NCBI RefSeq assembly: GCF_000332235.1
Contig: NZ_CM001775.1
Coordinates: 1,109,630-1,173,629 of the forward strand
Direction: 5' to 3'
DNA from: Geminocystis herdmanii PCC 6308
GTDB lineage: Bacteria > Cyanobacteriota > Cyanobacteriia > Cyanobacteriales > Cyanobacteriaceae
Length of the DNA: 64,000 bases
This document shows positions 1,490 through 56,747 of this stretch, one piece after another (the first letter of the stretch is position 1; each line of letters begins with the position of its first letter). The notes below the pieces were generated by a model that saw only the letters and a list, made by a program, of their open reading frames with translations, searched no databases and was not told where the DNA came from. Made by a program: the position numbers and the translations under genes.

Positions 1490-3238
1490 ATGTTAGAACA
1501 TGATGTTATCATTATCGGCGGTGGTTTAGCAGGATGTCGTGCGGCACTAGAAATTAAAAAGCTCAATCCTAGTATGGATGTGGGTTTGGTGGCAAAAACT
1601 CACCCCATTCGCTCTCATTCTGTCGCCGCTCAAGGTGGTATTGCGGCTAGTTTACAAAATGTTGATCCTGATGACGATTGGAAAGCCCACGCCTTCGATA
1701 CAGTAAAGGGTTCAGACTATTTAGCTGATCAAGATGCCGTGGAATTTTTAACCAAAGAAGCACCCGAAGTAATCATCGAATTAGAACATTTAGGGGTATT
1801 ATTTTCTCGTTTAGAAGACGGTAGAATCGCCCAACGTGCCTTTGGAGGGCATTCCCATAAACGCACCTGTTACGCCGCAGACAAGACAGGTCATGCAATG
1901 CTACATGAATTAGTTAATAATTTACGCCGTAATCACGTCAAAATCTACGAGGAATGGTATGTTATGCAGTTAATCCTCGAAGATAACGAAGCGAAGGGGG
2001 TAGTCATGTTTAACATCAATGATGGACATTTAGAGGTAGTTCGATCGAAAGCCGTAATGTTTGCTACTGGTGGTTATGGCAGGGTATTCAATACCACCTC
2101 CAATGATTATGCCTCCAGTGGAGACGGTTTAGCCATGACAGCAAAAGCTGGTTTACCCTTAGAAGATATGGAATTTGTCCAGTTTCATCCTACTGGTTTA
2201 TATCCCGTGGGGGTGTTAATTTCTGAAGCCGTGAGGGGAGAAGGCGCTTATCTGCGCAACAGTGAAGGGGAAAGATTTATGGCACGTTATGCCCCTAATC
2301 AAATGGAGTTAGCACCAAGAGATATTACTTCAAGGGCGATCGTCACTGAAATACGAGCAGGAAGGGGAATCAATCCCGATGGTAGCGCAGGGGGGATTTA
2401 TGTCCATTTGGACTTAACCCACATGGGCAAAGAAAAAATCATGTCTCGTGTGCCTTTTTGTTGGGAAGAAGCCCATCGTTTAGTGGGGGTTGATGCAGTA
2501 TATGAGCCGATGCCAGTGCGCCCCACCGCTCACTATTGTATGGGAGGCATCCCTGTTAATACCGATGGCAGAGTGAGAATTAATGGTAATCAACTCACGG
2601 AAGGCTTTTTTGCAGGGGGAGAATGTGCCTGTGTATCCGTACATGGTGCTAATCGTCTTGGTAGTAATTCCCTGCTAGAATGCGTAGTCTATGGGCGTAG
2701 AGTAGGACGTTCAATCGCTAATTATGTTCTCGATCGTGAAAGGTTGCTGGGCGATCGAGCTATGCCACAAATAGACGAACAAAAGTACTTACAAGCCTGT
2801 GAAAAACGAATCCAAGACTTATTGAATAAAGAAGGGGATATAAGAATTAAAAGCCTAAGACAGAACTTTCAAGACGTTATGACAGAGCATTGTGGCGTAT
2901 TTCGTACTCAGGAAGTCATGGAAGAAGGATTAAAACAAATTCGGCAACTTATCGCTAAATATGAGCAAATTTTCCTTGATGATAAACAAAGACAGTGGAA
3001 TACGGAATTAGTTGAAGCCCTCGAATTGCAAAACATTATGATTGTGGGCGAAATGATTTTAACCTCCGCTATCCAAAGAAAAGAGAGTCGAGGGGCGCAT
3101 TCAAGAGAAGACTATCCCACTAGAGACGATCGAAACTTCTTACAACACACCCTCGCTTCCCATTCTCCTGACGGCGTAACCGTTGATTATATGCCCGTTG
3201 TCGTCACAATGTTTGAACCCAAAGAGCGAAAATACTAG
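1490..3238 (+). CDS. sdhA: Succinate dehydrogenase / fumarate reductase flavoprotein subunit
   Basis: Catalytic FAD subunit of respiratory complex II, which oxidises succinate to fumarate and feeds electrons to plastoquinone in the thylakoid membrane. Visible motifs are the N-terminal GGGLAG dinucleotide fold, RSHSVAAQGG with the His that binds FAD covalently in this family, the HPTG...SEAVRGEGAYL substrate-site block, HYCMGG, and HGANRLGSNSLLE near the end of the flavin domain. The start was placed at ATG 1490 (MLEHDVII) rather than a TTG seven codons upstream, because the family begins at this methionine. Length is 582 aa, normal for the cyanobacterial protein. The iron-sulfur subunit is not adjacent. 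A heptad repeat begins at the stop codon. Confidence 0.93.
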   Translation: MLEHDVIIIGGGLAGCRAALEIKKLNPSMDVGLVAKTHPIRSHSVAAQGGIAASLQNVDPDDDWKAHAFDTVKGSDYLADQDAVEFLTKEAPEVIIELEHLGVLFSRLEDGRIAQRAFGGHSHKRTCYAADKTGHAMLHELVNNLRRNHVKIYEEWYVMQLILEDNEAKGVVMFNINDGHLEVVRSKAVMFATGGYGRVFNTTSNDYASSGDGLAMTAKAGLPLEDMEFVQFHPTGLYPVGVLISEAVRGEGAYLRNSEGERFMARYAPNQMELAPRDITSRAIVTEIRAGRGINPDGSAGGIYVHLDLTHMGKEKIMSRVPFCWEEAHRLVGVDAVYEPMPVRPTAHYCMGGIPVNTDGRVRINGNQLTEGFFAGGECACVSVHGANRLGSNSLLECVVYGRRVGRSIANYVLDRERLLGDRAMPQIDEQKYLQACEKRIQDLLNKEGDIRIKSLRQNFQDVMTEHCGVFRTQEVMEEGLKQIRQLIAKYEQIFLDDKQRQWNTELVEALELQNIMIVGEMILTSAIQRKESRGAHSREDYPTRDDRNFLQHTLASHSPDGVTVDYMPVVVTMFEPKERKY

Positions 3239-3273
3239 AGAATGGAGAATGGAAAATGGAGAATGGAGAATTT
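3238..3273. repeat. Short tandem repeat, unit GGAGAAT
   Basis: About five imperfect copies of a 7-bp unit begin at the last base of the sdhA stop codon. This belongs to the class of 7-8 bp tandem repeats that recurs at gene ends across the window. Confidence 0.85.
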
Positions 3274-3385
3274 AAAACTATCCCATAGTCTCCCAGTCTT
3301 CTAGTCTATACTCATTACTTATTACTTTTTACTCATTACTTTCTCTTAACCAAAAATTTGAGAATAAAACAGCCCAACACCTGTC

Positions 3386-4399
3386 TTATTTCCAGTTGGA
3401 AGCAACAATTTCAGCTAAGTCAACAACTCTTTGAGAATAACCCCATTCGTTATCATACCAAGCTACTACTTTAACCATGTCTCCTCCCATTGTCATGGTT
3501 AAGTTAGCATCCACGATCGAAGATACGTTAGTACCACGATAGTCAGAAGAAACCAAAGGCAATTCATTATAACCGAGAATACCCTTTAATGCACCTTCGG
3601 AAGCATCTTTTAGTACTTGATTAACTTGTTCTGCGATCGTGCTTTTTTCTACTTGTACAACTAAATCTACGATAGAAACGTTAGGAGTAGGCACACGCAA
3701 AGCAATACCATTTAACTTACCTTTTAATTCGGGTAAAACTAAAGCCACCGCTTGAGCTGCACCGGTGCTGGTAGGTACAATATTGATAGCAGCAGCACGC
3801 GCCCGACGTAAATCACGGTGACTAGCATCTAATAACCTCTGATCTCCAGTGTAACTGTGAGTAGTGGTCATTGTACCTTTGATGATACCAAAATTCTCAT
3901 GAAGTACTTTAGCGATCGGAGCTAAACAGTTAGTCGTACAACTAGCATTACTGACTACATTATATTTATCGTGAGAATATTCTTTATCGTTCACACCAAC
4001 AACATAAGTACCGACATTAGCACCTTTTCCGGGAGCAGTGATTAAAACTTTTTTCGCCCCTGCTTGAATGTGTTTGGATGCACCCTCATCGGTAACAAAT
4101 ACCCCAGTGGATTCGATGATTAAATCGACACCCCATTCTGCCCAAGGTAAGTTAAGAGGATTTCGATCGGACACACACTTAATCGTTTTACCGTTAACGG
4201 TTATAGAATTTTCATCCGCTTGAATATCAGCGTCAAAAATCCCTAACATAGAGTCATATCGTAATAAATGAGCATTAGTTCTAGGATCAGAAGTGTCGTT
4301 AATACCTACTACTTCTAAACCACTATACTCACGACCAAACCAACAACGTAAAAAGTTGCGTCCAATACGTCCAAAACCATTAATAGCTACTCTAACCAC
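3386..4399 (-). CDS. gap2: Glyceraldehyde-3-phosphate dehydrogenase, Calvin-cycle type
   Basis: Reduces 1,3-bisphosphoglycerate in the Calvin cycle. It is a 337-aa full-length GAPDH with N-terminal INGFGRIGR Rossmann motif and the catalytic Cys154 in SASCTTNC context (here NASCTTNC). The substrate-binding blocks [14 protein letters not shown] and the C-terminal WYDNEWGYS are intact. The NDTSDPRTN segment after the nucleotide fold is the form found in the dual NADP/NAD anabolic Gap2/plastid GapA group, unlike glycolytic Gap1. No CP12-like C-terminal extension is present (ends NWK). Monocistronic, on the opposite strand to sdhA and converging with it. Confidence 0.95.
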
Positions 4400-4638
4400 A
4401 GTTTATTTCCTCTGTTATTTAAACTAAATAAAGTAAATTTTTCTAATGTGCCTAATCATATCGTAAAGATTGTACCCTTTCATACCCATTTTTTGATTTT
4501 TTTTGCTAGTATTTTGCATATACAGAACAAATATGAAGTACTTCTTAGTTTTGTTCGATGTCAAGAGTTGTTACATTTGAACTTATTATTCAAAATTTTC
4601 GATAAGATGTGAAAAATTTGTCATCTCAGTAAAAAACA

Positions 4639-5421: not shown

Positions 5422-5580
5422 ATGAGTGAGGAGAATTCATTGTATGTTTACATTAAGAAAGGCAACATGGTATTGAGAAAATTTTATTAATTCCAAAATA
5501 TACAATCTATTTTGCATTAGTACTTAAAAGGTGTTAGGTAATACCTAATTTCAAGATAGAATTATCGGTGAAGGCAAGAG

Positions 5581-5610
5581 ACAAGTGGACAAGTGGACAA
5601 GTGGACAGGT
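5581..5610. repeat. Short tandem repeat, unit ACAAGTGG
   Basis: Three to four copies of an 8-bp unit in the 600-bp gap between the HELTH membrane protein and the pseudopilin gene. A small palindrome, TTAGGTAATACCTAA, lies just upstream near 5533. Confidence 0.75.
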
Positions 5611-5791
5611 AGAAAAATTCCTAATATATTGATGATCTTGTTCGCAAAACTTAACTTAACAGAAAATTTGACAAAACTTGTGCTGAAAAAAAATTAACGC
5701 TGACAAAAAAAAGAAATTTTAAAATTTCTCAAAAAATACTGCATAAAATCCCATTTTCCTACTGATAAGTAAGTATAGACTTTTTTAAAAT

Positions 5792-5913: not shown

Positions 5914-6020
5914 CAAAATGTAATTATTTTAACATCATACCAATTAATAATACAACATAATTGAAAGGAATGTCTATGAATTAATAAAAAAATTACCAAA
6001 TCAGTAGGAGAAACGATGCC

Positions 6021-6758
6021 ATGAAAAAAAAAATCATGGTGATGGGAAAAATTTGTCAAGGTAAATATTCCTGTGGAGGTTTAACGATAACAGAATTATT
6101 AGTCAGTGTTGTCATGGGGAGTGTGGTATTAACCGCCGCCGCCAGTGGATTTATTAATTTACTCAAAGCGAATCAACACATAGAATCGAAAACTATTCGC
6201 CATAATGGATTAATCAAAGCCTTAAATTATCTTCAAGAAGATATAAAAACGGCAAAATCTGTGACGATCGAACCTGCTACTGTAGGAGGATATTGCAATT
6301 CTTCTGGTATTGACTCTCAAAATTGTTTAGTATTAACCTATCCTCATAAAACCCCATTAAGAGAAGGATGTGTTAATAATCCTACAATTTATTATGGATT
6401 GCAAGATATTAGTGGTAAATCGCCCCAAATTTGGTTAAAACCTGCGATTTTGCGTAGAAAAATTATTTGTGACAAAAATCAAGGAAATTGGATTGTGGTG
6501 GCAGATGGATTATTGGGGAAAAACGAAACCCATGCTATAAATAACAAGACTTTGTGTACACAAGATAGTGTTACTTGGTCAAGTCATACAACAGTTTATG
6601 GCTATATTACTCATCAGAGTAACGAAAAAGGGGGATTTCGATTTTGTCTTTATGAAAATCATAGTCAAAATAGATTAGTAAGAATATTTTTATATGGACA
6701 TATCATTAATGGACAACCTATCAAAGTAAGTACGATCGCATTCACTCGCAGTCAATAA
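6021..6758 (+). CDS. Type IV pilin-like protein (prepilin leader, PilW-like)
   Basis: The N-terminus carries a class III prepilin signal: a positively charged leader ending CGG, then LTITELLVSVVMGSVVLTAAASG, with Thr where most have Phe at +1 region and Glu at the +5 position. The hydrophobic helix is followed by a globular domain of about 190 residues with several cysteines likely to form disulfides. Size and layout resemble minor pilins (PilW/HpsC-like) of cyanobacterial type IV pili and polysaccharide secretion. A TAGGAG ribosome site precedes ATG 6021. The stop codon TAA is also the first three bases of a TAAGAAT tandem repeat. Confidence 0.75.
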   Translation: MKKKIMVMGKICQGKYSCGGLTITELLVSVVMGSVVLTAAASGFINLLKANQHIESKTIRHNGLIKALNYLQEDIKTAKSVTIEPATVGGYCNSSGIDSQNCLVLTYPHKTPLREGCVNNPTIYYGLQDISGKSPQIWLKPAILRRKIICDKNQGNWIVVADGLLGKNETHAINNKTLCTQDSVTWSSHTTVYGYITHQSNEKGGFRFCLYENHSQNRLVRIFLYGHIINGQPIKVSTIAFTRSQ

Positions 6759-6785
6759 GAATTAAGAATTAAGAATTAAGAATTT
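6756..6785. repeat. Short tandem repeat, unit TAAGAAT
   Basis: About four copies of a 7-bp unit. The pseudopilin stop codon TAA (6756-6758) is the first three bases of the first unit. Confidence 0.88.
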
Positions 6786-10058: not shown

Positions 10059-10596
10059 CTATAGCAACAACAAAAAAACAAACCAAAGAGATTTACCGAA
10101 AATTAACAACAATATCCGTTTTCCCAGAGTACGGGTAATTGGTACAGACGGGGAGCAACTAGGCATCCTCGACACCAGAGACGCTAATCGCATGGCTGAA
10201 GAACAAGAATTAGACTTAGTTTTAGTCAGCGAAACGTCTGATCCTCCCGTGTGTCGTATTATGGATTACGGTAAATTTAAGTTTGAGCAGGAGAAAAAAG
10301 CCAGGGCAATCCGTAAAAAGCAACATACTGCGGACATAAAAGAGGTGAAAATGCGTTACAAAATTGATGAGCATGATTATCAAGTGCGAGTCAGTCAAGC
10401 AAAGCGTTTTCTGAATGCAGGAGATAAAGTTAAAGCCACGATTAACTTTCGAGGGCGAGAAGCGCAACACGTTCATTTAGGACAAGAATTATTGGAACGC
10501 ATGGCGCTCGATTTGACTGAATTAGCCGAAATTCAACAAAAACCCAAAAAAGAAGGGCGGAATATGATCATGTTTCTCTCACCCAAAAAGTCATAG
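10054..10596 (+). CDS. infC: Translation initiation factor IF-3
   Basis: Binds the 30S subunit, prevents premature 50S joining and checks the start codon. The 180-aa sequence has the N-domain [19 protein letters not shown], the linker region [17 protein letters not shown], and the C-domain [13 protein letters not shown]...[15 protein letters not shown]. The start is GTG at 10054; IF-3 genes often use rare starts for autoregulation. A GGAGA lies 18 bases upstream, farther than usual. The TAG stop is the start of a TAGGGAGA-type tandem repeat. Confidence 0.95.
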
Positions 10597-10643
10597 GGAG
10601 ATAGGGGTTAGGGAGATAGGGAGATAGGGGGTTAGGGAGACTA
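10594..10643. repeat. Short tandem repeat, unit near GGGAGATA
   Basis: Imperfect 7-8 bp units (TAGGGAGATAGGGGTTAGGGAGA...) starting at the infC stop codon TAG. Confidence 0.8.
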
Positions 10644-26533: not shown

Positions 26534-26573
26534 AAATTCTCAATTCTCAATTCTCAATTCTCAATTCTTTTTC
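26534..26573. repeat. Short tandem repeat TTCTCAA running into ylxR
   Basis: About five 7-bp units. The units from 26547 to 26567 are coding on the minus strand and give the last residues (ELRIEN) and the stop codon of YlxR. Confidence 0.9.
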
Positions 26574-26840
26574 GTGTAATTTTTGCCATAGTTGTTCATA
26601 AATTTCTGAGGGGATGTCTGTTTTTAATGCCCTAGGTAAGCGCTTTTTTTTCTGGGCTAAATTCAGACATTGAGCTTGAGGACAAAGGTAAGCCGATCGA
26701 CCCATGCCCTCATCTAAGGTAATATTATGATCGGGATAATTTTTGACAATACGCCAGAATAACGATCGATCTCCAATGAGATGACAACTAATACAACGAC
26801 GATAATTTTTGTGTTTAGGGCAGGGCTGTTTCATTTTCAA
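26547..26840 (-). CDS. ylxR: YlxR (DUF448) RNA-binding protein
   Basis: 97 aa. The family signatures RRCISCHLIGDR and GRSAYLCPQAQCL are present, as is the basic KKKRLPRAL helix. In bacteria ylxR follows nusA and precedes infB; here nusA is upstream on the same strand but the 460-bp gap between them is filled by a mobile element, and infB does not follow. The C-terminal ELRIEN and stop codon are encoded by a TTCTCAA tandem repeat, so the natural end of the protein has been altered. The product binds RNase P or nucleoid in other bacteria. Confidence 0.88.
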   Translation of the reverse strand: MKMKQPCPKHKNYRRCISCHLIGDRSLFWRIVKNYPDHNITLDEGMGRSAYLCPQAQCLNLAQKKKRLPRALKTDIPSEIYEQLWQKLHEKELRIEN

Positions 26841-26871: not shown

Positions 26872-27184
26872 CAATACTGTTCGATTAGTCTCTCAAGTTA
26901 TTTTGTCTGCCCCCTTTCCGATACTGGGGACTTTTATCAAGTTTAACTCCCCCAAATTTACCTCAGTTCGACAGAAGAAAAATGGTGAAGACGAGACAGG
27001 TGGACAAGTGGACAAGAAGAAAAATTTTCAATATTTGTACATTTTTGAGAGAATTTTATTGATTCACAAGAAATATAATCCCCCTGTCTGCCTGTCTGCC
27101 TGTCTTCCAAGTCAGTTCTCACCAATAATTTTATAGTTCACTCAGGTAAATTTGGGGGCTGGAGGGCTTAACCGAACAGTATTG
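26872..27184. mobile_element. 313-bp nested MITE-like element between ylxR and nusA
   Basis: Outer inverted repeats CAATACTGTTCGRTTA (26872-26887 and 27169-27184, one mismatch). Inner perfect inverted repeats CCCCCAAATTTACCT (26949-26963 and 27144-27158), the inner one carrying family B ends (ACCTCAGTTCGACA). The core has two tandem-repeat tracts, GGACAAGT-type near 26999 and CTGTCTGC-type near 27083. No transposase is encoded. Confidence 0.75.
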
Positions 27185-28442: not shown

Positions 28443-28478
28443 AGTAATTAATAATAATAGTTGATAGTTGAAGAAGGG

Positions 28479-28614
28479 ACAGGAAAACAGGAAGACAGGA
28501 AGACAGGAAGACAGGAAGACAGGAAGACAGGAAGACAGGAAGACAGGAAGACAGGAAGACAGGAAGACAGGAAGACAGGAAGACAGGAAGACAGGAAGAC
28601 AGGAAGACAGGAAG
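28479..28614. repeat. Tandem array of about 17 units of GACAGGAA
   Basis: A near-perfect 8-bp repeat of 136 bp between rimP and nusA. Eight is not a multiple of three and no unit makes a stop in any forward frame, so long spurious frames (repeats of RKTGRQED) appear here. Confidence 0.95.
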
Positions 28615-28666
28615 AAAAAATTACTGGGTTTTCAATTAATTCTTAGAACCTGTTTTAAAAGTTTCT

Positions 28667-28741
28667 GATCCCCCTAAATCCCCCTTAACAAGGGGGACTT
28701 TGTCTAATATTTCCCCCTTTTTCAAGGGGGCAAGGGGGATC
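28667..28741. repeat. GATCCCCCT...AGGGGGATC palindromic element, 75 bp
   Basis: Ends GATCCCCCT and AGGGGGATC are inverted, and two internal hairpins (CCCCCTTAACAAGGGGG and CCCCCTTTTTCAAGGGGG) lie between. It has the same architecture as the in-frame insert in uvrA at 36889-37023. Confidence 0.88.
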
Positions 28742-28768
28742 AAGTATCAAAATTAAGACTTTTCAAAC

Positions 28769-28822
28769 ATTTTCTTAATTCTTAATTCTTAATTCTTAAT
28801 TCTTAATTCTTAATTCTTAATT
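28769..28822. repeat. Short tandem repeat TTCTTAA reaching the rimP stop
   Basis: Seven to eight 7-bp units. On the minus strand they begin at the second base of the rimP stop codon TAA. Confidence 0.88.
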
Positions 28823-29285
28823 ATTCTCCTTTGTTTTCTAATTTGACTCGTGTAACAATCTCCCTAGGAATTGCTACCATTTTGCCTTTACAGTTGATGT
28901 ATATTGCTTTTTCGTCTCTCCCCTGAAGATTTCCTTCCCATTGAGTACGTTTTTTATACTCGATATTAGTTTCTACCATGACAGGAAAACCTTTGAAACT
29001 AATAAATTCTCGATCGCTCGTCAAGTTTTCACCGATACCCGGACTAGAAATTTCCAAAACATAAGCGGAAGGAATAATGTTATTTGCATCGAGGGTTTTT
29101 TCTAACAAACGACTCATTTTTTCGCAGTTATCCAGACTGGTATCCCCTGATAGATTGCGAATGTCCACCCTTAACACGGGAGGATTATGATTAGACAGAA
29201 AAACCAGATTGACGATTTCTAGGTTCAAATCTTGGGCTATGGGTTGGGCAATTTCTGTAATATTGGGAATCAGGGGATGAGTCAT
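28821..29285 (-). CDS. rimP: Ribosome maturation factor RimP
   Basis: 154 aa from ATG 29285 (MTHPLIPNITEIAQPIA, the family start); an upstream in-frame ATG adds 22 hydrophobic residues that do not belong. The N-terminal alpha/beta domain includes LRVDIRNLSGDTSLDNCEKMSRLLEKTLD and YVLEISSPGIGENL, and the C-terminal SH3-like domain has KRTQWEGNLQGRDEKAIYINCKGKMVAIPREIVTRVKL. It helps 30S assembly. Upstream of nusA in the conserved order. Confidence 0.93.
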   Translation of the reverse strand: MTHPLIPNITEIAQPIAQDLNLEIVNLVFLSNHNPPVLRVDIRNLSGDTSLDNCEKMSRLLEKTLDANNIIPSAYVLEISSPGIGENLTSDREFISFKGFPVMVETNIEYKKRTQWEGNLQGRDEKAIYINCKGKMVAIPREIVTRVKLENKGE

Positions 29286-31157: not shown

Positions 31158-32453
31158 ATGTTTAATCGTATCTTTCGATCTACAAAACGCTGGATTAGTA
31201 ATAGTTCTCAAAATGCCTTAGAAGAAGCATATCAAAAGGCTTTAGCTATCAAAAAAATTGAGGAAGAACATTTTAATAGTCAAAAAATTGATCCTAAAAA
31301 TTGTAACTATGGCGATCGAGTTTACGAATATTTTGAACAAGAATTAAAATCAAATTTACAAATAATTAACCTAAAAATAAATCAATTTAAAACAAGTAAA
31401 TCAGTACATCATTTCTTAGATAACAGTTTAAAAAATAATAAAAATCTGCAAGAAATTGATTACCAAAAAGATATTATTTTAGAAAGATTAAAAGTTATTG
31501 ATGAAATTATCAACAAATATAATGGTAATTATTACGATACATCATTAAAAATAGTTAAACCAGAAAAATCTCAACAAAAATCTACACCAATAACCAAGAA
31601 AAATAGTTCAGAAAATAATCTTGAACCCAGTATCGAAACCGTCTCAGATAAAACCAGTGTTTTACCCCGTTCATTTTTACGAACCTTAGACAGAATCAAG
31701 CAAGAAATTGATCCCAAATCAGCAGATATAGAACAGAATGTGATCAATAAATTTAGAAAATCTAGGTATAAAACAGCGATTTCTGTTAAATTTTTATTAC
31801 TATTAATCATAGTACCTTTATTAGTTCATAACTTGAGTAAAATTACCCTTGGAAAAATATTTGTTGATCCTTATTTTACCAAAAATGAGCAAATAATTTT
31901 TATTAATCAAGATTTAGAAGAAGAAGCATTAATAGAATTAAAAACTTTTGAAGAACATCTTAATCTTAAAAGTTTAATGGGTTTAAGTCCTAATTTATCA
32001 TCTGAAGAAAAAGAAGATAAAATGAAAGAAAAAGCAAAGGAAATAGCTGATAATTATCGTAATGAAAGTTCTAATGCTGTGAAAAATATTTTTGCTGATT
32101 TACTCTCTTTTAGTGCTTTTGTGATTATTCTGGTGTTGAGTAAAAGAGAAATAGCGATTTTAAAATCATTTATTGATGAAACCGTTTACGGTTTAAGTGA
32201 TTCTGCTAAAGCATTTCTCATCATTCTGTTTACTGATATGTTTGTGGGATTCCACTCTCCCCATGGTTGGGAAGTTATTTTAGAAAGTGTTGCACGACAT
32301 TTTGGTTTACCAGAAAATCGAGATTTTAACTTCTTATTTATTGCCACTTTTCCCGTTATTTTAGATACTGTCTTAAAGTATTGGATTTTTCGTTACCTCA
32401 ATCGTATTTCTCCTTCTGCTGTTGCTACTTATAAAAACATGAATGAATCTTAA
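31158..32453 (+). CDS. pxcA: Light-induced proton extrusion protein PxcA (CemA family)
   Basis: 431 aa. The N-terminal 200 residues are soluble and Lys/Glu/Asn-rich; the C-terminal part is the CemA-type membrane domain with helices at FLLLLIIVPLLVHNL, FADLLSFSAFVIILVLSK, KAFLIILFTDMFVGFHSPHGWE and the end FPVILDTVLKYWIFRYLNRISPSAVATYKNM. The family acts in light-driven Na+-dependent proton exchange at the plasma membrane. The stop TAA is followed at once by a repeat element. Confidence 0.93.
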   Translation: MFNRIFRSTKRWISNSSQNALEEAYQKALAIKKIEEEHFNSQKIDPKNCNYGDRVYEYFEQELKSNLQIINLKINQFKTSKSVHHFLDNSLKNNKNLQEIDYQKDIILERLKVIDEIINKYNGNYYDTSLKIVKPEKSQQKSTPITKKNSSENNLEPSIETVSDKTSVLPRSFLRTLDRIKQEIDPKSADIEQNVINKFRKSRYKTAISVKFLLLLIIVPLLVHNLSKITLGKIFVDPYFTKNEQIIFINQDLEEEALIELKTFEEHLNLKSLMGLSPNLSSEEKEDKMKEKAKEIADNYRNESSNAVKNIFADLLSFSAFVIILVLSKREIAILKSFIDETVYGLSDSAKAFLIILFTDMFVGFHSPHGWEVILESVARHFGLPENRDFNFLFIATFPVILDTVLKYWIFRYLNRISPSAVATYKNMNES

Positions 32454-32455: not shown

Positions 32456-32532
32456 AGTTTGTAGTGATGGCTTTAGCCATTAGACTTGTCCAATAATTAA
32501 CAAAATAAGGGTTAAAACCCTTACTACAAACT
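32456..32532. repeat. 77-bp element with AGTTTGTAGT...ACTACAAACT inverted ends
   Basis: Perfect 10-bp terminal inverted repeats and inner palindromes GGCTTTAGCC and GGGTTAAAACCC. It lies two bases after the pxcA stop. A degenerate copy is at 46330-46406 and a half copy at 23822-23846. Confidence 0.85.
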
Positions 32533-39375: not shown

Positions 39376-39789
39376 TTACTTAATTGATTGTTTATTCGCA
39401 ATTTTTAATTCTTGATAACTGGCAAAAGATTTTAACCTGAATAGGTTTAATGTTTGTCCTAAATTGAGGGGAAACACCGAAATTCCTTCTAAACGAGATT
39501 GAATCCAACCATCCCCCCAACTCCATTCTTGATAACCGTCAATGCCACCACTTAAAATTAAACGGAGACAATTATTGTTCATATATTCAACTTTATTTTT
39601 AATTTCTATTAAACCTACATAAAAACTAAAAGTATCCCCTTGAGATAATTTACTGGCAGATTTTTCGGTAAATTTTAAAGGAAAACACCATTGTTTTAAA
39701 TCACTAATATTTAATAAACTATCCCGAAAAATAGTTTCTTTTGCTTTAACTTCAATTCTTAATTCGCTTTTTTGAAATTTACCTAACAT
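39376..39789 (-). CDS. Conserved hypothetical protein, 137 aa
   Basis: Soluble protein without recognised motif. The C-terminal half has a dense aromatic stretch (GGIDGYQEWSWGDGWIQSRLEGISVFPLNLGQTLNLFRLKSF) that suggests a beta-rich ligand-binding fold, but I cannot name a family. It is flanked on both sides by copies of repeat family A. Confidence 0.55.
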   Translation of the reverse strand: MLGKFQKSELRIEVKAKETIFRDSLLNISDLKQWCFPLKFTEKSASKLSQGDTFSFYVGLIEIKNKVEYMNNNCLRLILSGGIDGYQEWSWGDGWIQSRLEGISVFPLNLGQTLNLFRLKSFASYQELKIANKQSIK

Positions 39790-40031: not shown

Positions 40032-41195
40032 GTGAGTATTATAATTGGTCGTGGTAAACAAGCGCGTAGAGCTTATGGTATAGATGAAATCGCCTTAGTA
40101 CCGGGTAATAGAACATTAGACCCAGTTTTAGCGGATACCCATGTTACGATTGGAGGAATCGAACGAGAAATTCCTATTCTTGCTAGTGCTATGGATGGTG
40201 TTGTAGATGTTAAAATGGCGGTACTTTTGTCTCAATTAGGCTCATTAGGAGTATTAAACCTTGAGGGTATCCAAACTCGTTATGAAGACCCCAATCCTAT
40301 TCTCGATCGCATTGCCTCCGTTGGCAAGTCAGAATTTGTCGGTTTAATGCAGGAATTATACAGCGTACCTGTTAAACCAGAATTAATTAAACAAAGAATT
40401 ACAGACATCAAACAACAAGGCGGTATCGCTGCGGTAAGTTTAACTCCTGCTGGTGCTAGTCAATACGGTAAAGTAGTCGCAGAAGCGGGGGCAGATTTAG
40501 TCTTTATTCAAGCTACCGTTGTTTCCACAGCTCACTTATCTCCTGACACCATAACCCCCTTAGACTTAGCTAGTTTCTGTGAGCAAATGCCCATGCCCGT
40601 TATTTTGGGTAACTGCGTTACTTATGATGTAACTTTACAATTACTTAAAGCTGGAGCAGCTGGTATTTTAGTCGGTATTGGTCCGGGTGCGGCTTGTACT
40701 TCTAGGGGAGTTTTAGGGGTAGGTATTCCCCAAGCCACTGCTGTTGCCGATTGTGCTGCCGCTAGGGATGATTTTGAGAAGGAAACAGGCAAATATATTC
40801 CCATTATTGCCGATGGTGGTATCATCACTGGAGGAGATATTTGTAAATGTATCGCCTGTGGTGCTGATGCTGTTATGATTGGCTCACCCATTGCCCGTAG
40901 TGCCGAAGCACCGGGTAGAGGTTTTCATTGGGGTATGGCAACTCCTAGCCCTGTTTTACCTCGTGGTACTAGAATTAATGTTGGTACTACTGGCTCGATC
41001 GAAGAAATTTTACGAGGCCCTGCTAAACTCGATGATGGTACTCATAATCTACTAGGTGCTTTAAAAACCAGTATGGGTACATTAGGAGCAAAAAATATCA
41101 AAGAAATGCAGGAAGTCGAAGTTGTAATTGCACCATCTTTATTAACAGAGGGTAAAGTTTATCAAAAAGCCCAACAATTAGGGATGGGCAAATAG
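40032..41195 (+). CDS. guaB3: GuaB3-family IMP dehydrogenase-related protein
   Basis: 387-aa TIM-barrel protein of the IMP dehydrogenase family without CBS domains, starting at GTG 40032. The Cys loop GPGAACTSRGVLGVG holds the catalytic C222, and the phosphate/substrate blocks IADGGIITGGDICKCIACGADAVMIGSP and GRGFHWGMATPSPVLPRGTRI are present. It is the cyanobacterial/actinobacterial GuaB3 type and may make XMP from IMP alongside GuaB. The stop codon TAG opens a TAGGAGACAGG tandem repeat. Confidence 0.9.
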   Translation: MSIIIGRGKQARRAYGIDEIALVPGNRTLDPVLADTHVTIGGIEREIPILASAMDGVVDVKMAVLLSQLGSLGVLNLEGIQTRYEDPNPILDRIASVGKSEFVGLMQELYSVPVKPELIKQRITDIKQQGGIAAVSLTPAGASQYGKVVAEAGADLVFIQATVVSTAHLSPDTITPLDLASFCEQMPMPVILGNCVTYDVTLQLLKAGAAGILVGIGPGAACTSRGVLGVGIPQATAVADCAAARDDFEKETGKYIPIIADGGIITGGDICKCIACGADAVMIGSPIARSAEAPGRGFHWGMATPSPVLPRGTRINVGTTGSIEEILRGPAKLDDGTHNLLGALKTSMGTLGAKNIKEMQEVEVVIAPSLLTEGKVYQKAQQLGMGK

Positions 41196-41255
41196 GAGAC
41201 AGGAAGACAGGTGGACAGGTGGACAGGTGGACAGGTGGACAGGCAGACAGGAAGA
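41193..41255. repeat. Short tandem repeat, units GACAGGTG / GACAGGAA
   Basis: Six or more 8-bp units beginning in the guaB3 stop codon. Confidence 0.88.
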
Positions 41256-41285
41256 CTAGAAGAATAGGAGACTAGGAGATAATTA

Positions 41286-41364
41286 ATTCTTAATTCTTAA
41301 CTCTTAATTCTTAATTCTTAATTCTTAATTCTTAATTCTCCATTCTCCATTCTCCATTCTCCAT
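41286..41364. repeat. Short tandem repeats TTCTTAA then CTCCATT
   Basis: Two adjoining heptad arrays in the 260-bp gap before clpR; the unit changes once, near 41337. Confidence 0.88.
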
Positions 41365-41456
41365 TATTTCGTAATTACCCAACGCGCACAGTAACGAGAT
41401 TGTGTCAAAATCTAAAGAAGTATTTTAATTAAGCCCAGTTAAGACAAAATAACAAG

Positions 41457-42182: not shown

Positions 42183-42782
42183 ATGCCTATTGGAGTACCT
42201 AGAGTTCCATATCAAGCACCCGGACAACCCTATAGCGACTGGGTAAATATATACGATCGACTTTATCGAGAAAGAATTATCTTTTTAGGTAGAGGAGTTA
42301 ATGACAGTTTAGCTAACCAAATTATTGCGGTGATGCTTTATCTCGATTCCGAAGACAATAATAAACCCATTTACCTGTATATCAACTCCCCCGGAGGCTC
42401 TGTCACCGCAGGATTGGCAATTTATGACACCATGCAACATATTAAATCGGAAGTGGTGACTATTTGTGTCGGTTTAGCCGCTTCTATGGGGGCATTTTTA
42501 CTAACCGCAGGTACTAAAGGAAAAAGATTAGCTTTACCCCATTCTCGTATCATGATACACCAACCCCTAGGCGGTGTACAAGGTAGAAGACAAGCTACGG
42601 ATATTGAAATTGAGGCGAAAGAAATTCTCCGTATTCGTGATGAATTAAATGGCATGATGGCTCATCATACAGGACAATCGATCGAAAAAATTGCCAAAGA
42701 TACCGATCGAGATTACTTTATGTCGGCTCAAGAAGCTCTTGAATACGGCTTAATTGATAAAGTCATCGAAGATAGAGTGTAA
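42183..42782 (+). CDS. clpP3: ATP-dependent Clp protease proteolytic subunit ClpP3
   Basis: 199 aa. The catalytic Ser101 ([11 protein letters not shown]) and His126 (SRIMIHQP) are intact, with the third residue in DTDRDYFMS (173-181). It is the active partner of ClpR upstream, in the same operon. The numbering as ClpP3 rests on that neighbour. Confidence 0.93.
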
Positions 42783-42788
42783 ATCAAA

Positions 42789-42893
42789 TTAGGAATTAGG
42801 AATTAGGAATTAAACCATCTTTTAAATTGACATACTCCCATTCCTCATTACTCATTACTCATTACTCATTCCTCATTCCTCATTTCTTTTTTA
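42789..42893. repeat. Short tandem repeats GGAATTA and CTCATTA
   Basis: GGAATTA units follow the clpP3 stop and, after about 25 bases, an array of TTCCTCATTACTCA units runs to 42888. Confidence 0.85.
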
Positions 42894-49405: not shown

Positions 49406-50518
49406 ATGAATCAAAAAATTATCTCCCCACGGAAAAAGAAAAGTATCTGGCAGTTGGCAAAAGAAGGTATTATTGATGGTGGACCTAGTATGTGTCAATT
49501 TGCTATTACTAGTGCTTGTAATGCTAAGTGCGGATTTTGTAACTTTGCAGTGGATAAAATGCCGATCGAGCAACGCCAATATGTTACTTTAGAGGAAGCA
49601 AAACAAGCCGCCGAAATTCTCTACAAAAACGGGGTTTACTTTATTATTTATGTGGGAGGTGAACCAATGTTACACCCTAACTTGACGGAAATTATCACCC
49701 ATGCTTCCAGTATTGGTATGGCGCCGATGTTAGTCACCAACGCTTCACTGTTAACGAAAGAAAGAATTGAGGAGTTAGCTACAACGGGATTAGCTAGTGT
49801 TATTATATCGATCGACGCTACAGAAATAGAAAAACACGAGGAAAATAGAGGTTTAAGGGGTGTTTGTCAACGCATTAAAACCGCTAACGAATATTTTAAA
49901 AAGTACAATATCAGCACCACCGCTTCCGTCACCATGTCAAGATTGATTGATGATTATAGTCAACTTCCCTCTTTTTTAGAGTCTTTAGGCTTTGATAGCG
50001 TTACTTTTTCCTATCCTTTAACAACTCTTGCATCCTCTTACTTAGGTTATGCTGACTCTAATTTAGTGGATTATACCAAAGAAGAATTGCTCGATCGATT
50101 TGAGGCGGTGAAAGCCTTAAAAAAACAGTTTCATGTGGTTAACCCTACCGCATCCATTGAAGATATGGAGAGACACTTAAAAGGAGAAACCGAGAAATTT
50201 GGTTGTTTGGGGGGTTGGAAATTCTTTTATTTAGATTGGTTTTTAAATCTTTATCGTTGTCATAATTGGGCTGAACCGATGTGTCATATCACTGAATTTG
50301 ATGGTTCACAAAGGATTAGGGATAATTGTACAGCTTGTATGATGGATTGTTACCGAGATTCGAGCGTGATGCAACATATTGCGGTTTCTGTCAGTGATGG
50401 AGTCCAAGCCTTAAAACGAGGTAATATTAAACAAGCCTTTACCCATTGGTTTAACCATAATAATCTAATTTCCGTTCGATCGGTTCTCGAAGATGCAAAA
50501 TGGTTAAAAAATTTATAA
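49406..50518 (+). CDS. Radical SAM protein with SPASM-like C-terminus
   Basis: 370 aa. The [4Fe-4S] site is C38-x3-C42-x2-C45 (ACNAKCGFCNF), followed by YVGGEPMLHP, a glycine-rich SAM contact. Near residue 327 a second Cys group, NCTACMMDCYRDSS, resembles an auxiliary cluster site of SPASM proteins. The GGPSMCQFAITSACNAKC form recalls HpnH-like enzymes but I cannot assign a substrate. Alone, divergent from psbD. Repeat family A starts immediately after its stop. Confidence 0.82.
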   Translation: MNQKIISPRKKKSIWQLAKEGIIDGGPSMCQFAITSACNAKCGFCNFAVDKMPIEQRQYVTLEEAKQAAEILYKNGVYFIIYVGGEPMLHPNLTEIITHASSIGMAPMLVTNASLLTKERIEELATTGLASVIISIDATEIEKHEENRGLRGVCQRIKTANEYFKKYNISTTASVTMSRLIDDYSQLPSFLESLGFDSVTFSYPLTTLASSYLGYADSNLVDYTKEELLDRFEAVKALKKQFHVVNPTASIEDMERHLKGETEKFGCLGGWKFFYLDWFLNLYRCHNWAEPMCHITEFDGSQRIRDNCTACMMDCYRDSSVMQHIAVSVSDGVQALKRGNIKQAFTHWFNHNNLISVRSVLEDAKWLKNL

Positions 50519-50625
50519 GTAAGGTTTGCTGAAAAGGTATTTTGATGAGGATAGGAGAGAGGAGTCAGGAGACAGGAGATAGGAGAAATACTGAAACATC
50601 AAGGTTTTGATGCTGTTGATAGATA
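50519..50625 (+). repeat. Dispersed repeat family A, copy A3
   Basis: GTAAGGTTTGCTGAAAAGGTA, TTTTGATGAGGATAGG, tandem AGGAGACAGGAGATAGG, then AAACATCAAGGTTTTGATG. An inverted end-like sequence (ATTCAGTAAACCCTAAG) lies near 50757-50773, so the whole 50519-50773 stretch may be one larger element. Confidence 0.75.
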
Positions 50626-50808
50626 GAATAAGTATAGTTGTATTTTAAGAAATAAGGTCAAAAGTGTCGAATTTTTGAATAAAAATCCTCAAAACGGCGC
50701 ACTTTTTCCCTAATGTATTATGTCTAAACCTTTGATTTTAATAGCTTTCTGATTTATTCAGTAAACCCTAAGTATTTCTCCTCTCTCCTAACTTCTATCT
50801 CCTTTCTC

Positions 50809-51216: not shown

Positions 51217-51261
51217 ATAAGTAGTTAGGGAGTTAGGGAATTAAGGAGATAGTTGAGTTTA

Positions 51262-52191: not shown

Positions 52192-52261
52192 ATAATTTCC
52201 CTGACAGAATTTCAAATTAACTTATAAGTTAACCTTTATGGGTTACTCTGGCAATAGGGAA

Positions 52262-52440
52262 CGGGGAAAGACAAGGAGACAGGGAGACAGGGTGATAGGG
52301 TGATAAGGGTGATAAGGGTGATAAGGGTGACAGGATGATAGGGTGATAAGGGTGAATATTTTTAATTTTTAATTCTTAATTCTTAATTCTTAATTTTTAA
52401 TTCTTAATTCTTAATTCTTAATTCTTAATTCTTAATTTGA
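52262..52440. repeat. Two adjoining tandem arrays, GGGTGATAA-type and TTCTTAA
   Basis: 52262-52354 has GGTGATAGGGTGATAAGGGTGATAA units of 7-9 bp; 52367-52436 has TTCTTAA heptads that run into the DUF3326 gene and supply its last codons and stop on the minus strand. Confidence 0.88.
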
Positions 52441-53477
52441 TTAATTCGTGTTTCTCCCTTATTTAGTGCATCGTGACGGATGCCCGATCGATCGAGTACA
52501 ATTAAGCCTAATGCTTCGAGGTAAGATTTGACTCGTATTGCCTTAATGCCTAAAACTTCAGGGGGAATGTTTAAGACGGTTTCGTTATCTTCTACGGCGA
52601 TAATCGTTGTATTTAAACCACTAAAACTCAACACGGCACTACCGCCACAGGCACTATACGGAATGACTAAACTATTTATATCTTCTGCCCAAAGACTATA
52701 AGGGTTTCGTTGGAAGGTAAATTGAGGCGCTTTGCTTAATCCCACTAACACGCAGGATAAAAAAGTGTATCCTAATTCTTCGGCGCTCGATCGAGCTGAT
52801 ATATTAATATCTAAGGGTAAAGGGGATAAAGCAGGGGCGTGGGCGCAAGGTATCTGAAATTCCCTGACTAACAGATGAGAGATAACGGCTTCTGCACCAG
52901 CTAAAACATCAACACCGTTGCCATGACGATAATCTTCTAAGGCTTTACTATCGGTATCATCAGGAAATCTTGCGACTACGGCTAAGGCGTTTACTTTTTT
53001 TTCTCTGATTAATGTTTCAGCACTTCGTAGCAAACTGTCAGGATTGCCAATTGTACCCCAACTTGCACCGCTATCGGCGGTTCTCAATTCCACATTTAAG
53101 GCTCGATCGGTGATAATATAATCTTGAATATTGATGCCTAAAGTTGCCCTTACTGCGTCTGCTACTTGTAGATGTCTATATCGCAATTCGGTTTCGATAC
53201 CTTTGTCTAAAATTAAGCCGATTTTGTTTTGTCTGACGGATTCTAAACCCCATTCTCCTGATGCGAATTTGTCTAAGGCGTAACCCTCCACATAGTCTAT
53301 ATTTTCACATTGCCAATATAAATTTGCTCCATTCATGACGTTGGGATGGGTAATCACTCGATCGCACACTTGGGAGAACGATCGTGCTACGGGTAAAGCA
53401 TCCCCTGCATAACCCCCAATAGATGCACCAATACCAGTGGGAATAATTAAAACGGTAGAGTAAGGTTTTTTGATCAT
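52425..53477 (-). CDS. DUF3326 family protein
   Basis: 350 aa, conserved in cyanobacteria and plants. Glycine-rich start (IIPTGIGASIGGYAGDALPVAR), ELRTADSGASWGTIGNPDSLLR and FPDDTDSKALEDYRHGNGVDVLAGAEAVISHLLVREF are characteristic blocks. No catalytic motif is evident. The last three residues and stop are encoded by a TTCTTAA repeat. Confidence 0.88.
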   Translation of the reverse strand: MIKKPYSTVLIIPTGIGASIGGYAGDALPVARSFSQVCDRVITHPNVMNGANLYWQCENIDYVEGYALDKFASGEWGLESVRQNKIGLILDKGIETELRYRHLQVADAVRATLGINIQDYIITDRALNVELRTADSGASWGTIGNPDSLLRSAETLIREKKVNALAVVARFPDDTDSKALEDYRHGNGVDVLAGAEAVISHLLVREFQIPCAHAPALSPLPLDINISARSSAEELGYTFLSCVLVGLSKAPQFTFQRNPYSLWAEDINSLVIPYSACGGSAVLSFSGLNTTIIAVEDNETVLNIPPEVLGIKAIRVKSYLEALGLIVLDRSGIRHDALNKGETRINQIKN

Positions 53478-54344
53478 TTTTAATATTACAAATCAACACT
53501 AAGAAAATGCTTTAAGTAAGGAGTAATGAGTAAATGCCCATCACTTATAAAGTAGAATTGAATTACCACATTCAAATTTTATTTATGAATAATAATAACA
53601 TAAATATAACCATTCAAGAAAGAACAAAAAATTAGTAATTATAGTTATAAAAGCATATCATGAGCTTAAAAAAAGACATTTTTATGATAGATTAAAGTTT
53701 GACAAAAAATCAAAAAGTCAATCTATACAAAGTTTTTAAGAGCTATTGATCTATTAAATAAAAATTTTATTAATAAATATTATATTATTTTAAAAGAAGT
53801 AAATAAAATTCTATATTAGATAAAATAATGATAAAACTAGGTTTAATTTAATTATCTAAATTTGAAAAAATGATAGAATAAAATGCAAGAATTATCAAGG
53901 TATTAATAAGTTCAATTAATAACTGACGTTACGCACTCATTCAAATATTAAGTTAAGGGAGGTTTCAGGTAGCAGGTAGCAGGTTTCAGGTTTAAAACCC
54001 TCAAACATTGATTCGTCAGTCAAAGGATTTACTTCGACATAAAGAAAAAAATCAATAAACATAAGTTTCTTGTCAATTCTTTAACCTAACACCTGACACC
54101 TGACACCTGACACCTAAAATCAACAATTAATTCTATTTTTGCGTAACATCAGTTAATAAATGAAAAGAAAAAGAATCTAGTTAGATATTAACTGTTACTC
54201 ATTACTTCAAAACCAAGCATATCATTTACCTCCCCTTCAGCAAAAGACTTTTTCAGCAAACCCTAAATACTTTTTGAGCAAATCCTCGTTAGCGATCGAA
54301 CTCAGGTTAAGATTAATGAAAAATATTTTTTTCAATGAGTGAAA
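53478..54344. other. Intergenic region, 860 bp
   Basis: Very AT-rich, no coding frame. It contains the MITE at 53922-54153 and, near 54236-54282, fragments of repeat family A ends (TTTTTCAGCAAACCCTAAATACTTTTTGAGC). Confidence 0.55.
53922..54153. mobile_element. 232-bp MITE with TAATA target duplication
   Basis: Terminal inverted repeats ACTGACGTTACGCA and TGCGTAACATCAGT (one mismatch in 14), flanked by TAATA at 53917-53921 and 54154-54158. Inside are two tandem-repeat tracts in opposite sense: AGGTAGC-type near 53967 and CCTGACA-type near 54086. Non-coding. Confidence 0.85.
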
Positions 54345-56747
54345 ATGCTTAAAATCGAATTACCTAAAATTCCCTCCTATGCTTGGCAGTGTGACATCGG
54401 CAAAATTTGGGAAAACCCTTATAAAGTGCGTTATGAGAGTAACTTAGATGATGGTGCAAATCATGGAATGCCTTTAGGGGGATTTGGTAGCGGTTGCATC
54501 GGTAGAGGAGTTAACGGTGATTTTAACCTCTGGCATATTGACGGCGGTAATCATATTTTCAAGGCTTTATCCGCTTGTCAGTTTAGCGTTTTTGAGCAGG
54601 TGGAAGGAGAAACTCCCCAAGTTTATGCTATGAGTACAACTCCTCCTGAAGATGGTAGTTTATCTAGTTGGACATGGTATCCTCAAGGTAAAGGCACTTA
54701 TTCGGCGTTATATCCTCGTAGTTGGTTTGACTATCAAGGAGTGTTTAAGTCTCATATTATTTGTGAGCAATTTTCCCCTATCTGGGGAGGAAGTTACCAA
54801 GAGGCGAGTTACCCCGTGGCGATGTTTGATTGGAGTATTCATAATCCCACGGATAAGGATATTACTATTAGCATCATGTTTTCGTGGCAAAATAGCGTTG
54901 GTTGGTTTACTAATGCTATTAAAAGCCCTACGGTAAAGGTTAGGGATGATGGAAGCCCTGAGTATGAATATCAACCCCGTTGGGGGGATAGCACAGGCAA
55001 TCTTAATCAGTGGATTCAAGATAATTTTCGGGTGGGTTGTCTGTTCGATCGAATACGCATGAATGACGAACCGAAGGAAGGAGAAGGACAATTTGCCATT
55101 GCTAGTGTGACGAATCCAACTTTAGAGGTGTTTTACCATAGCCGTTGGAATCCCAAAGGAGACGGTAGTGAGTTATGGGATTATTTTGCTATGAATGGTT
55201 CACTCCCAGATTACCAAGATGAGACACCTGCCGAACCGGGGGAGCAAATTGCGGGGGCGATGGCGATTAGATTTACGGTTAAAGCAGGAAAAACGAAAAA
55301 AATTCCCTTTGTTTTGGCTTGGGATTTCCCCGTAACAGAATTTGCGGAAGGAATCAACTATTATCGCCGTTATACGGACTTTTTCGGAAGAAATGGCAAA
55401 AATGCTTGGGCAATAATACGAACCGCTTTAAAACATAGCGATATGTGGCAAAATCGCATTTCTGAGTGGCAAAAACCAATTTTAACTCGATCGAACCTAC
55501 CCGATTGGCTTAAAATGGCATTGTTTAACGAATTGTACTTATTAGCGGATGGTGGTAGTTTATGGACAGCCGCCACAGAAAATGATCCCGTAGGACAGTT
55601 CGGTGTGCTAGAATGTATTGATTATCGTTGGTATGAAAGTTTAGATGTAAGGTTATATGGTTCATTTTCCATGATCCTTTTATGGCCTCGTTTAGATAAA
55701 TCGATTTTAGAGGCTTTTAGTCATGCCATTTCCCATAGTGACGATACTCCTCGTATTATCGGTTATAATCGTGCTAGTGCCATTAGAAAGGCAAAAGGGG
55801 CAACTCCTCACGACTTAGGCGCACCGAATGAACATCCTTGGGAAAAAACCAACTATACTAGCTATCAAGATTGTAACTTATGGAAAGACTTAGGCTGTGA
55901 TTTTGTTTTGCAAGTCTATCGAGATTATCTGTTTACGGGGAGTAAAGATCAAGATTTTTTGTGGGAATGTTGGGCTAGTATTGTAGAAACCCTCCATTAT
56001 GTTAAGGGTTTTGATTTGGATGGTGATGGTATCCCCGAAAATTCGGGTGCGCCAGATCAAACTTTTGATGATTGGCGGTTACAGGGTATTAGTGCCTATT
56101 GTGGCGGTTTATGGATTGTGGCGCTGGAGGCTGGTATTGCCATTGGTAAAATCTTAATGGCTAACCCCCCCATGAATCCTAATTTACAACCTGATGACTT
56201 CCCCGAAGGCATTAGAAGTTCGATCGAAGTGTTTGCAGATTGGCTACAAAAATCTAGGGCAATTTATCATCAAACTTTATGGAATGGGGAATATTATCGC
56301 TTAGATAGTGAAAGTGGTTCGGATGTAGTTATGGCGGATCAACTTTCTGGACAATTTTATGCACAAATATTAGGATTACCTGATGTGGTAGAATCTGAGT
56401 ATGTTCGATCGACCTTAAACAAAGTTTATGATGCTTGTTTTCTCAAATTCCATGAAGGAAAATTTGGTATTGCCAACGGCTTAAAACCAGACGGAAAACC
56501 AGTAAAAGAAAATGATACTCACCCTTTGGAAGTGTGGACTGGTATTAATTATGGTATTGTGGCATTTATGATACTTAACGGCATGAAAGAAGAAGGCTTA
56601 AAGGTAGCGGAAACGGTAGTTAAACAAGTCTATGAAAATGGCTTACAATTCCGCACTCCCGAAGCTATAACCGCCGTCGGCACATTTCGAGCTAGTCATT
56701 ATCTACGAGCTATGGCAATATGGGCAATATATCATGTGCTTAGTTAG
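54345..56747 (+). CDS. GH116 beta-glucosidase / glucosylceramidase-like
   Basis: About 800 aa from ATG 54345 (a GTG two codons earlier also possible). The N-terminal beta-sandwich (LGGFGSGCIGRGVNGDFNLWHI) and (alpha/alpha)6 catalytic domain follow the GBA2 layout. The nucleophile Glu is in RWYESLDVRLYGSF and the acid/base Asp in NSGAPDQTFDDW. It has no signal peptide, so acts in the cytosol, perhaps on glucolipids or osmolyte glucosides. Its stop TAG starts a copy of repeat family A. Confidence 0.88.
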   Translation: MLKIELPKIPSYAWQCDIGKIWENPYKVRYESNLDDGANHGMPLGGFGSGCIGRGVNGDFNLWHIDGGNHIFKALSACQFSVFEQVEGETPQVYAMSTTPPEDGSLSSWTWYPQGKGTYSALYPRSWFDYQGVFKSHIICEQFSPIWGGSYQEASYPVAMFDWSIHNPTDKDITISIMFSWQNSVGWFTNAIKSPTVKVRDDGSPEYEYQPRWGDSTGNLNQWIQDNFRVGCLFDRIRMNDEPKEGEGQFAIASVTNPTLEVFYHSRWNPKGDGSELWDYFAMNGSLPDYQDETPAEPGEQIAGAMAIRFTVKAGKTKKIPFVLAWDFPVTEFAEGINYYRRYTDFFGRNGKNAWAIIRTALKHSDMWQNRISEWQKPILTRSNLPDWLKMALFNELYLLADGGSLWTAATENDPVGQFGVLECIDYRWYESLDVRLYGSFSMILLWPRLDKSILEAFSHAISHSDDTPRIIGYNRASAIRKAKGATPHDLGAPNEHPWEKTNYTSYQDCNLWKDLGCDFVLQVYRDYLFTGSKDQDFLWECWASIVETLHYVKGFDLDGDGIPENSGAPDQTFDDWRLQGISAYCGGLWIVALEAGIAIGKILMANPPMNPNLQPDDFPEGIRSSIEVFADWLQKSRAIYHQTLWNGEYYRLDSESGSDVVMADQLSGQFYAQILGLPDVVESEYVRSTLNKVYDACFLKFHEGKFGIANGLKPDGKPVKENDTHPLEVWTGINYGIVAFMILNGMKEEGLKVAETVVKQVYENGLQFRTPEAITAVGTFRASHYLRAMAIWAIYHVLS

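Follow-up and report, generated by a model that had tools for sequence, protein, structure and literature searches.

Short tandem repeats anchored at stop codons in the cyanobacterium Geminocystis herdmanii PCC 6308

Short tandem repeats of Geminocystis herdmanii PCC 6308 begin at stop codons about twice as often as random placement in the same intergenic gaps predicts. The repeats were examined in a 64-kb stretch of the 4.26-Mb single-contig genome (positions 1,109,630 to 1,173,629 of NZ_CM001775.1; GC 35.5%; hereafter the window), where a first-pass annotation had placed them at the stop codons of sdhA, infC, rimP, guaB3, pxcA, a GH116 gene and a pseudopilin gene. These gene names are those of the first-pass annotation, given from the sequence alone; the relatives of the window sdhA are cyanobacterial. 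Anchoring of repeats at stop codons was confirmed in a larger sample of the genome. With roughly even confidence, we favour the explanation that the arrays are ordinary cyanobacterial repeats of the STRR type, mostly heptads, with the gene-proximal edge anchored on the stop codon through duplication and slippage, and that an inverted-repeat element called MITE-G reaches stop codons by a separate process.

Array edges, register and orientation at stop codons

The own-genome sample comprised the window and 40 stretches of 20 kb spaced evenly over the same genome (864 kb, 800 kb of it outside the window). Gene calls came from a home-made dicodon caller and number 858 (82% coding), with stops more reliable than starts. 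Arrays were exact self-match runs with a period of 6-9, and 212 were found at run lengths of at least 12: 177 intergenic, 25 partly so and 10 coding. The longer class (match run of at least 14) numbered 137 in the real sequence versus 0 in mononucleotide-shuffled sequence. Window arrays were located by Tandem Repeats Finder plus inspection of the sequence. Arrays wholly inside genes (9 of the 212) and edges lacking a called gene on that side were left out of the counts.

Of 179 stop-side edges in the 800 kb beyond the window, 34 fell at -6 to +5 relative to the stop codon, whereas random placement in the same gaps, under a null that permits a 6-base overhang into genes, gave 16.1 ± 3.3 and reached 34 in 0 of 2000 permutations. 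Stop-to-repeat distances thus compared with shuffled positions bear out the first-pass annotation, with an excess of about two-fold, although the majority of array edges lie away from stops. Start-side edges showed no excess in this sample (6 observed, 9.9 expected), and no array in the genome sampled overlapped a start codon. The window alone was insufficient (3 stop edges against 1.17 expected, p about 0.10). An array was present at the stop of 53 of the 831 called genes.

Among 80 loci that surround sdhA in named cyanobacteria (the best 80 of a longer list, sharing neighbouring genes and orthologous gaps so that the counts are non-independent), 37 of 165 stop-side edges lay within -6 to +9 of a stop, versus 1 of 81 on the start side. 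Two relatives of the same genus were also sampled, G001 (400 kb, then 1.2 Mb) and G003 (400 kb). Near-stop edges made up 10/24 of the stop-side edges in G001 (first 400 kb) and 4/23 in G003. Arrays were about four times denser in G. herdmanii (24.5 per 100 kb) than in either relative (6.8 and 6.0, 400 kb each).

Arrays no more than 9 bases from a stop were strongly oriented: 49 were purine-rich in the sense direction and 3 pyrimidine-rich (n = 53), versus 46 and 100 for arrays at least 30 bases from a stop (n = 147). Within 9 bases of a start the figures were 1 and 12 (n = 13). A general purine skew after stops was rejected as the source, array-free gaps having little or none in this genome; convergent gaps in G001 and G003 keep some.

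The arrays are also in register with the stop codon. For those starting at -3 to +9, 68 of 114 stop bases matched the repeat unit in phase, compared with 44.0 expected (0/20000), and pooling G001, G003 and the 80 loci gave 68/141 versus 45.8 (p 0.0001). No register was seen for arrays starting at +10 to +30 (own genome 23/78, 25.6 expected). The bases between the stop and the exact array matched the unit at 52 of 88 positions (59%, 30% expected), as degenerate units.

The period was 7 in 152 of the 212 arrays and 8 in 45. Heptads predominated near stops (47 heptads to 4 octads, versus 90 to 32 far away; Fisher 0.007), which favours the anchoring explanation. A sense-direction stop triplet occurs in 43 of the 53 near-stop units. 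A selected function, in which heptads and octads bearing TAA, TAG or TGA stop all three frames as a termination fail-safe or form 3'-untranslated structures, would suit this triplet content and the confinement of unit length to 7 or 8 in 197/212 arrays; the three-frame argument has been made for the TAACTGA repeats (PMC4679880). We nevertheless hold such a function to be very improbable. Heptads far from stops contain stop triplets almost as often, TGGAGAA, the second commonest near-stop unit, has none, most called genes have no stop array, and the congeners do with about four times fewer arrays. Enrichment of triplet-bearing units near stops was itself rejected, as p 0.002 over all arrays fell to p 0.14 for heptads alone.

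Inverted-repeat elements and paired arms

All seven sites listed by the first-pass annotation have a repeat that touches the stop codon or lies no more than three bases from it, but only five of the seven are tandem arrays of 7 or 8 bp (Table 1). Its treatment of the seven as one phenomenon pooled tandem arrays with ends of miniature inverted-repeat transposable elements (MITEs), those at GH116 and pxcA being the ends of inverted-repeat elements. Its observation that the stop TAA or TAG forms part of the repeat unit was upheld, for example at the pseudopilin gene, where the TAA opens the array, and at sdhA, where the G of TAG does so.

Table 1 Repeats and inverted-repeat elements at gene ends in the window. 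ORF, open reading frame.
Position	Strand	Feature	Remark
3236-3271	+	sdhA stop TAG (3236-3238) and (GAGAATG)4.9 array (3238-3271)	G of TAG is array base 1
3309-3341	+	Pyrimidine-rich heptad arm (TACTTAT) opposite purine arm, sdhA gap	Tandem Repeats Finder, sequence
6756-6784	+	(TAAGAAT)4.1 array, 100%	First TAA is pseudopilin stop 6756-6758 (ORF 6021-6758)
10593-10640	+	Octad array (ATAGGGAG)	Holds infC stop TAG 10594-10596
26535-26568	-	Heptad array, sense GAGAATT	Overlaps end of ORF 26547-26834 (weak ORF)
28772-28822	-	(TTAAGAA)7.3 array	Two rimP stop bases (stop 28821-28823) in register
32457-32531	+	MITE-F, 75-bp inverted-repeat element, non-tandem	3 bases past pxcA stop 32451-32453
39368	-	MITE-G end (only outer base marked)	7 bases past stop of ORF 39376-39789
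41193-41256	+	guaB3 stop TAG (41193-41195) and octad array (AGACAGGT)	Array 41197-41256, longest exact run from 41206
41283-41365	+	Pyrimidine-rich heptad arm (TTAATTC, ATTCTCC), guaB3 gap	
42787-42812	+	(AATTAGG)3.7 array	4 bases past stop of ORF 42183-42782
50522-50768	+	Complete MITE-G, 247 bp	6-bp duplication TAAGTA opens with stop TAA of ORF 49406-50518
52369-52437	-	(TTAAGAA)n arrays	Across stop of ORF 52425-53477
56745-56775	+	GH116 stop TAG (56745-56747)	TA plus first G of MITE-G end

MITE-G has terminal inverted repeats and, in five of nine paired copies, a target duplication, as MITEs do. Those five measure 247-248 bp and carry an exact duplication of 6 bp (four TAANTA, one GAATTA), which the other four lack; many ends have no recognised partner, and the far end of the GH116 element was not found. 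As is generally known of MITEs, both MITE-G and a second family, MITE-A, combine terminal inverted repeats and target duplications with a length of about 190-250 bp and many copies, but ends at stop codons are far commoner in MITE-G. With ends inside genes left out (five of each family in the own genome), 15 of 33 MITE-G ends lay at -2 to +8 from a stop, versus 3 of 59 MITE-A ends (Fisher 6e-6); a further 4 MITE-A ends overlap the end of a called gene, and MITE-F gave 7/46. MITE-G ends near stops numbered 9/20 and 3/9 in the relatives, and 10 of the 30 best genome-wide ends lay at -2 to +8, one of them on a doubtful 41-aa ORF. MITE-A was rejected as a stop-targeting element on its low counts at stops in this genome, in G001 (7/40) and in G003 (2/12).

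TA precedes all 41 distinct MITE-G ends and TANNTA precedes 36. In a stricter set, 12 of 30 ends stood at a distance d of -1 or +3 from the stop, as against 6-9% of the available target words (binomial 4e-6 or less). Because stop hits exceed the target-word prediction about 4.5 to 6 times, a further bias of MITE-G toward stops remains, whether by tolerance or by preference. At d = -1 the G of the element converts the target TA to TAG. The C-termini at such sites are conserved at GH116 and L301 (= L025:6001) and differ by a few codons at L296; L294, L307 and L313 had no relative among the loci compared and stand outside this comparison.

Four pairs of MITE-G terminal inverted repeats lying 0.7-3.5 kb apart enclose ORFs. 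At L025:5539-6001 is a 463-bp MITE-G-like element, each end of which gives the G of a TAG stop to one of two convergent genes. MITE-A (ACCTGAGTTCGA...TCGAACTCAGGT) is mostly about 190-215 bp and occurs at 26960-27147 of the window and as 19 other pairs in the sample; 12 of the 20 listed pairs have target duplications of 6-7 bp, and many copies contain purine or pyrimidine octad arrays.

Successive arrays within one gap of the own genome follow a fixed order. Purine-rich then pyrimidine-rich arrays were found 34 times and the reverse 0 times (two purine-rich 12, two pyrimidine-rich 19), and gaps free of MITE-A gave 23 versus 0. This order argues for a reading in which the arrays are the arms of mobile elements, with a purine arm, a centre and a pyrimidine arm, that insert at TA-rich words, stop codons being the outermost words at which insertion is tolerated. 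That MITE-A and a core B repeat bear such arms inside or around them, and that MITE-G and MITE-A have target duplications of 6-7 bp, also speaks for it. We consider mobile arms rather improbable, for no pair of arms has a unit in common (0/34), many stop arrays have only one exact arm, and among the 12 mixed pairs of the 80 other loci two are reversed (10 versus 2). No terminal inverted repeat or target duplication was seen at plain stop arrays, where the edges are too degenerate and the related genomes too distant for an empty site to be defined. An origin of the two arms in a hairpin or shared terminal inverted repeat is likewise ruled out by the lack of shared units.

The core B repeat (GTTCAATTTATTGAAC ... 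GTGTAATTCATTACAC) was observed at L020:4821-5062, L026:15041-15263, L030:12253-12464 and L039:2731-2967, with the purine-rich array on its left and the pyrimidine-rich array on its right irrespective of the direction of the core.

We give hardly any credence to a further process resembling telomere addition, in which DNA would break at gene ends, gain purine-rich repeats on its 3' ends and then be joined. Each end would receive one unit family, primed where the end (often TAA or TAG) matches the unit. If true, such repair would yield the purine-then-pyrimidine order, the differing units of the arms and the register with the stop.

Gene ends in relatives and the origin of the arrays

Orthologous loci were gathered for six window genes. 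The sdhA product ends in ER(K/R)Y at all 80 other loci and that of guaB3 in GMGK* in all 20 genomes, the own genome included, and these two stops therefore predate the arrays. The GH116 protein ends at the same residue as 8 of 13 relatives and one or two codons away from the other five, which end later. Stops supplied by the array are thus ruled out as the general case by the conserved protein ends of sdhA, guaB3 and GH116. Among array genes with a reciprocal best hit, the protein end was the same in 4/7 (G001) and 3/8 (G003), several pairs being weakly similar; genes lacking arrays gave 18/64 and 10/58.

An exact array was found at the orthologous gene end in 0 of 7 cases in G001 and 1 of 8 in G003, degenerate repeats or MITE ends often being present instead. 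Different repeats occupy one gene end in different species at guaB3, infC, L020:4821, L025:6001 and L032:622. At L321 the stop is followed by TTA and MITE-G (TAA TTA, then the element), and the G001 ortholog has TAA TTA followed by MITE-A. The arrays at L002:9322 and L030:1631 are common to G001, but their units and copy number have changed, and relative G004, lacking an array, has the seed ATTAAGAATTAA at the stop corresponding to ORF 52425. The interspecies differences fit long-lived arrays that change by slippage, together with repeated arrivals. Separately, L024:19145 has a TAATTAA/TAGTTAA array after a TAG stop, and the orthologous stop in G003 has a single TAGTTAA.

Gap lengths bear on an account by tolerance alone, in which repeats arise anywhere and are purged from coding and 5' regulatory DNA, with short native gaps leaving the remainder at stops. 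In 42 gene pairs conserved with G001, ten gaps bear arrays, and the own gap is mostly longer (median 250 versus 73 for pairs both on the - strand, 158 versus 107 for both on the + strand and 240 versus 65 for the one convergent pair); the gap at L024:13540 is an exception (45 here, 100 in G001). The rimP gap is 378 bp here versus 49 bp in G001 and 16 bp in G002. These lengths, the scarcity of arrays near starts and the rough conformity of MITE-A agree with tolerance, and short native gaps and tolerance at gene ends must contribute to stop adjacency. As the whole explanation, however, tolerance seems to us unlikely, if a possibility to be weighed, as it predicts neither the register, nor the strand rule (49 versus 3), nor the difference in behaviour of MITE-G and MITE-A within a single genome. 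The first-pass annotation had argued for more than avoidance of coding DNA, and the register, the absence of a start-side excess and the MITE-G ends at stops sustain that argument.

The rimP gap (window 28443-28820) consists of repeats, including a 17-copy GACAGGAA array; its other neighbour is presumably nusA, from the usual gene order.

In the explanation we favour, a 7- or 8-base tandem duplication that covers the stop codon or starts just after it would leave the protein unchanged, as the first copy still ends the frame. Duplications wholly upstream of the stop would, by the genetic code, shift the frame and be lost. Slippage in place would then lengthen the arrays and alter their units, selection freezing the first unit where it forms the stop and the last codons. 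The predicted outcome is an edge at the stop, a stop in register, purine-rich sense strands and differing units across related species. The purine orientation would arise from the position of stop triplets on the purine-rich strand of most of the common units. The edge, the register, the orientation and the interspecies differences were observed; duplication and slippage we infer. For MITE-G, the 6-bp target, mostly TAANTA, contains TAA, and the G of the element would complete TAG from TA.

Several results weigh against this explanation. Whole stop codons in register were in weaker excess (7 versus 3.1, p 0.03, in the own genome; 6 versus 2.1, p 0.01, in the others). Units are common genome-wide (AAGAATT in 31, AATTCTC in 18 and AATGGAG in 16 of the 212 arrays) instead of deriving from each gene end, so some dispersal of units exists. 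Stop triplets are not significantly more frequent in near-stop heptads (40/47) than in far ones (65/90, p 0.14). The purine-then-pyrimidine order holds when neither arm is near a stop (9 versus 0), and anchoring leaves it unexplained. The infC stop was probably supplied by the array, because the protein ends KKS* here and KK* in 4/4 genus relatives, one codon earlier, and the stop at L040:12156 apparently was too, that protein being four codons shorter than in G001. The ortholog set is small (7 and 8 array genes), with some weakly similar pairs. Finally, the own genome shows a slight resemblance to the unit upstream of the stop (z 2.6 at 1-7 and 2.3 at 15-21 bases before it). Such similarity is absent in the 80 other loci, and as the bases from stop to array match the unit, the repeat boundary is best placed at the stop codon.

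The first-pass proposal that repeats seed at stop codons or that insertion targets TA-containing termination sites therefore stands in part. It accords with the register, the lack of a start-side excess and the MITE-G ends at d = -1 or +3, but fails as a general rule, since most arrays lie elsewhere, their units occur genome-wide, MITE-A seldom ends at stops, and short gaps and tolerance contribute.

Relation to known repeats

Dispersed tandem heptanucleotides termed STRR were reportedly described in Calothrix by Mazel and colleagues in 1990. The present arrays are likewise dispersed tandem repeats, mostly heptanucleotides, in a cyanobacterium, with the same units at many mostly intergenic loci.

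Rehm et al. 2015 (PMC4692102) described intergenic heptads of the types GGGNATC and GGGGA(C/T)T in Xanthomonas and in Nostoc sp. PCC 7120. Most heptads downstream of genes are sense-strand repeats 0-50 bp from the stop, and some of them run over it; those upstream of genes lie on the antisense strand. They are under-represented between divergent genes, 70-75 convergent pairs occur per Xanthomonas genome, and no general association with mobile elements is stated. Stop proximity and the strand rule are thus already known for GGGNATC heptads, and the strand rule holds here also (49 versus 3 of 53 near stops, 1 versus 12 of 13 near starts). In contrast to the single G-quadruplex unit type there, we found many, mostly non-G-quadruplex families, the commonest near-stop units (AAGAATT, AATGGAG and AACAATT) having no GGG. 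Positions are given in 50-bp bins in that account, and phase, exact edge or a MITE link was not seen in the part available.

The TAACTGA direct repeats of Beggiatoaceae and cyanobacteria, heptads with stop triplets, are mostly placed just upstream of start codons (MacGregor 2015, PMC4679880), whereas the present arrays are anchored at stops and none lies over a start. Thirteen of those repeats overlap the stop of the upstream gene and were called tolerated at protein ends.

Anchoring is sharper here than in the published heptad accounts as far as these could be compared. The phase lock, the many unit families, the differing repeats at one gene end in relatives and the stop-hitting MITE-G appear to be new; the full-text literature, with subscription journals mostly outside it, gave no account of stop-codon phase or of a stop-hitting MITE in the parts seen. 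The results give a testable and sharply defined rule for the starting point of bacterial heptad repeats. They suggest that stop codons can found repeat arrays as their first units and draw attention to a MITE whose insertion completes a stop codon, and with them the published but unexplained strand rule becomes a mechanistic question.

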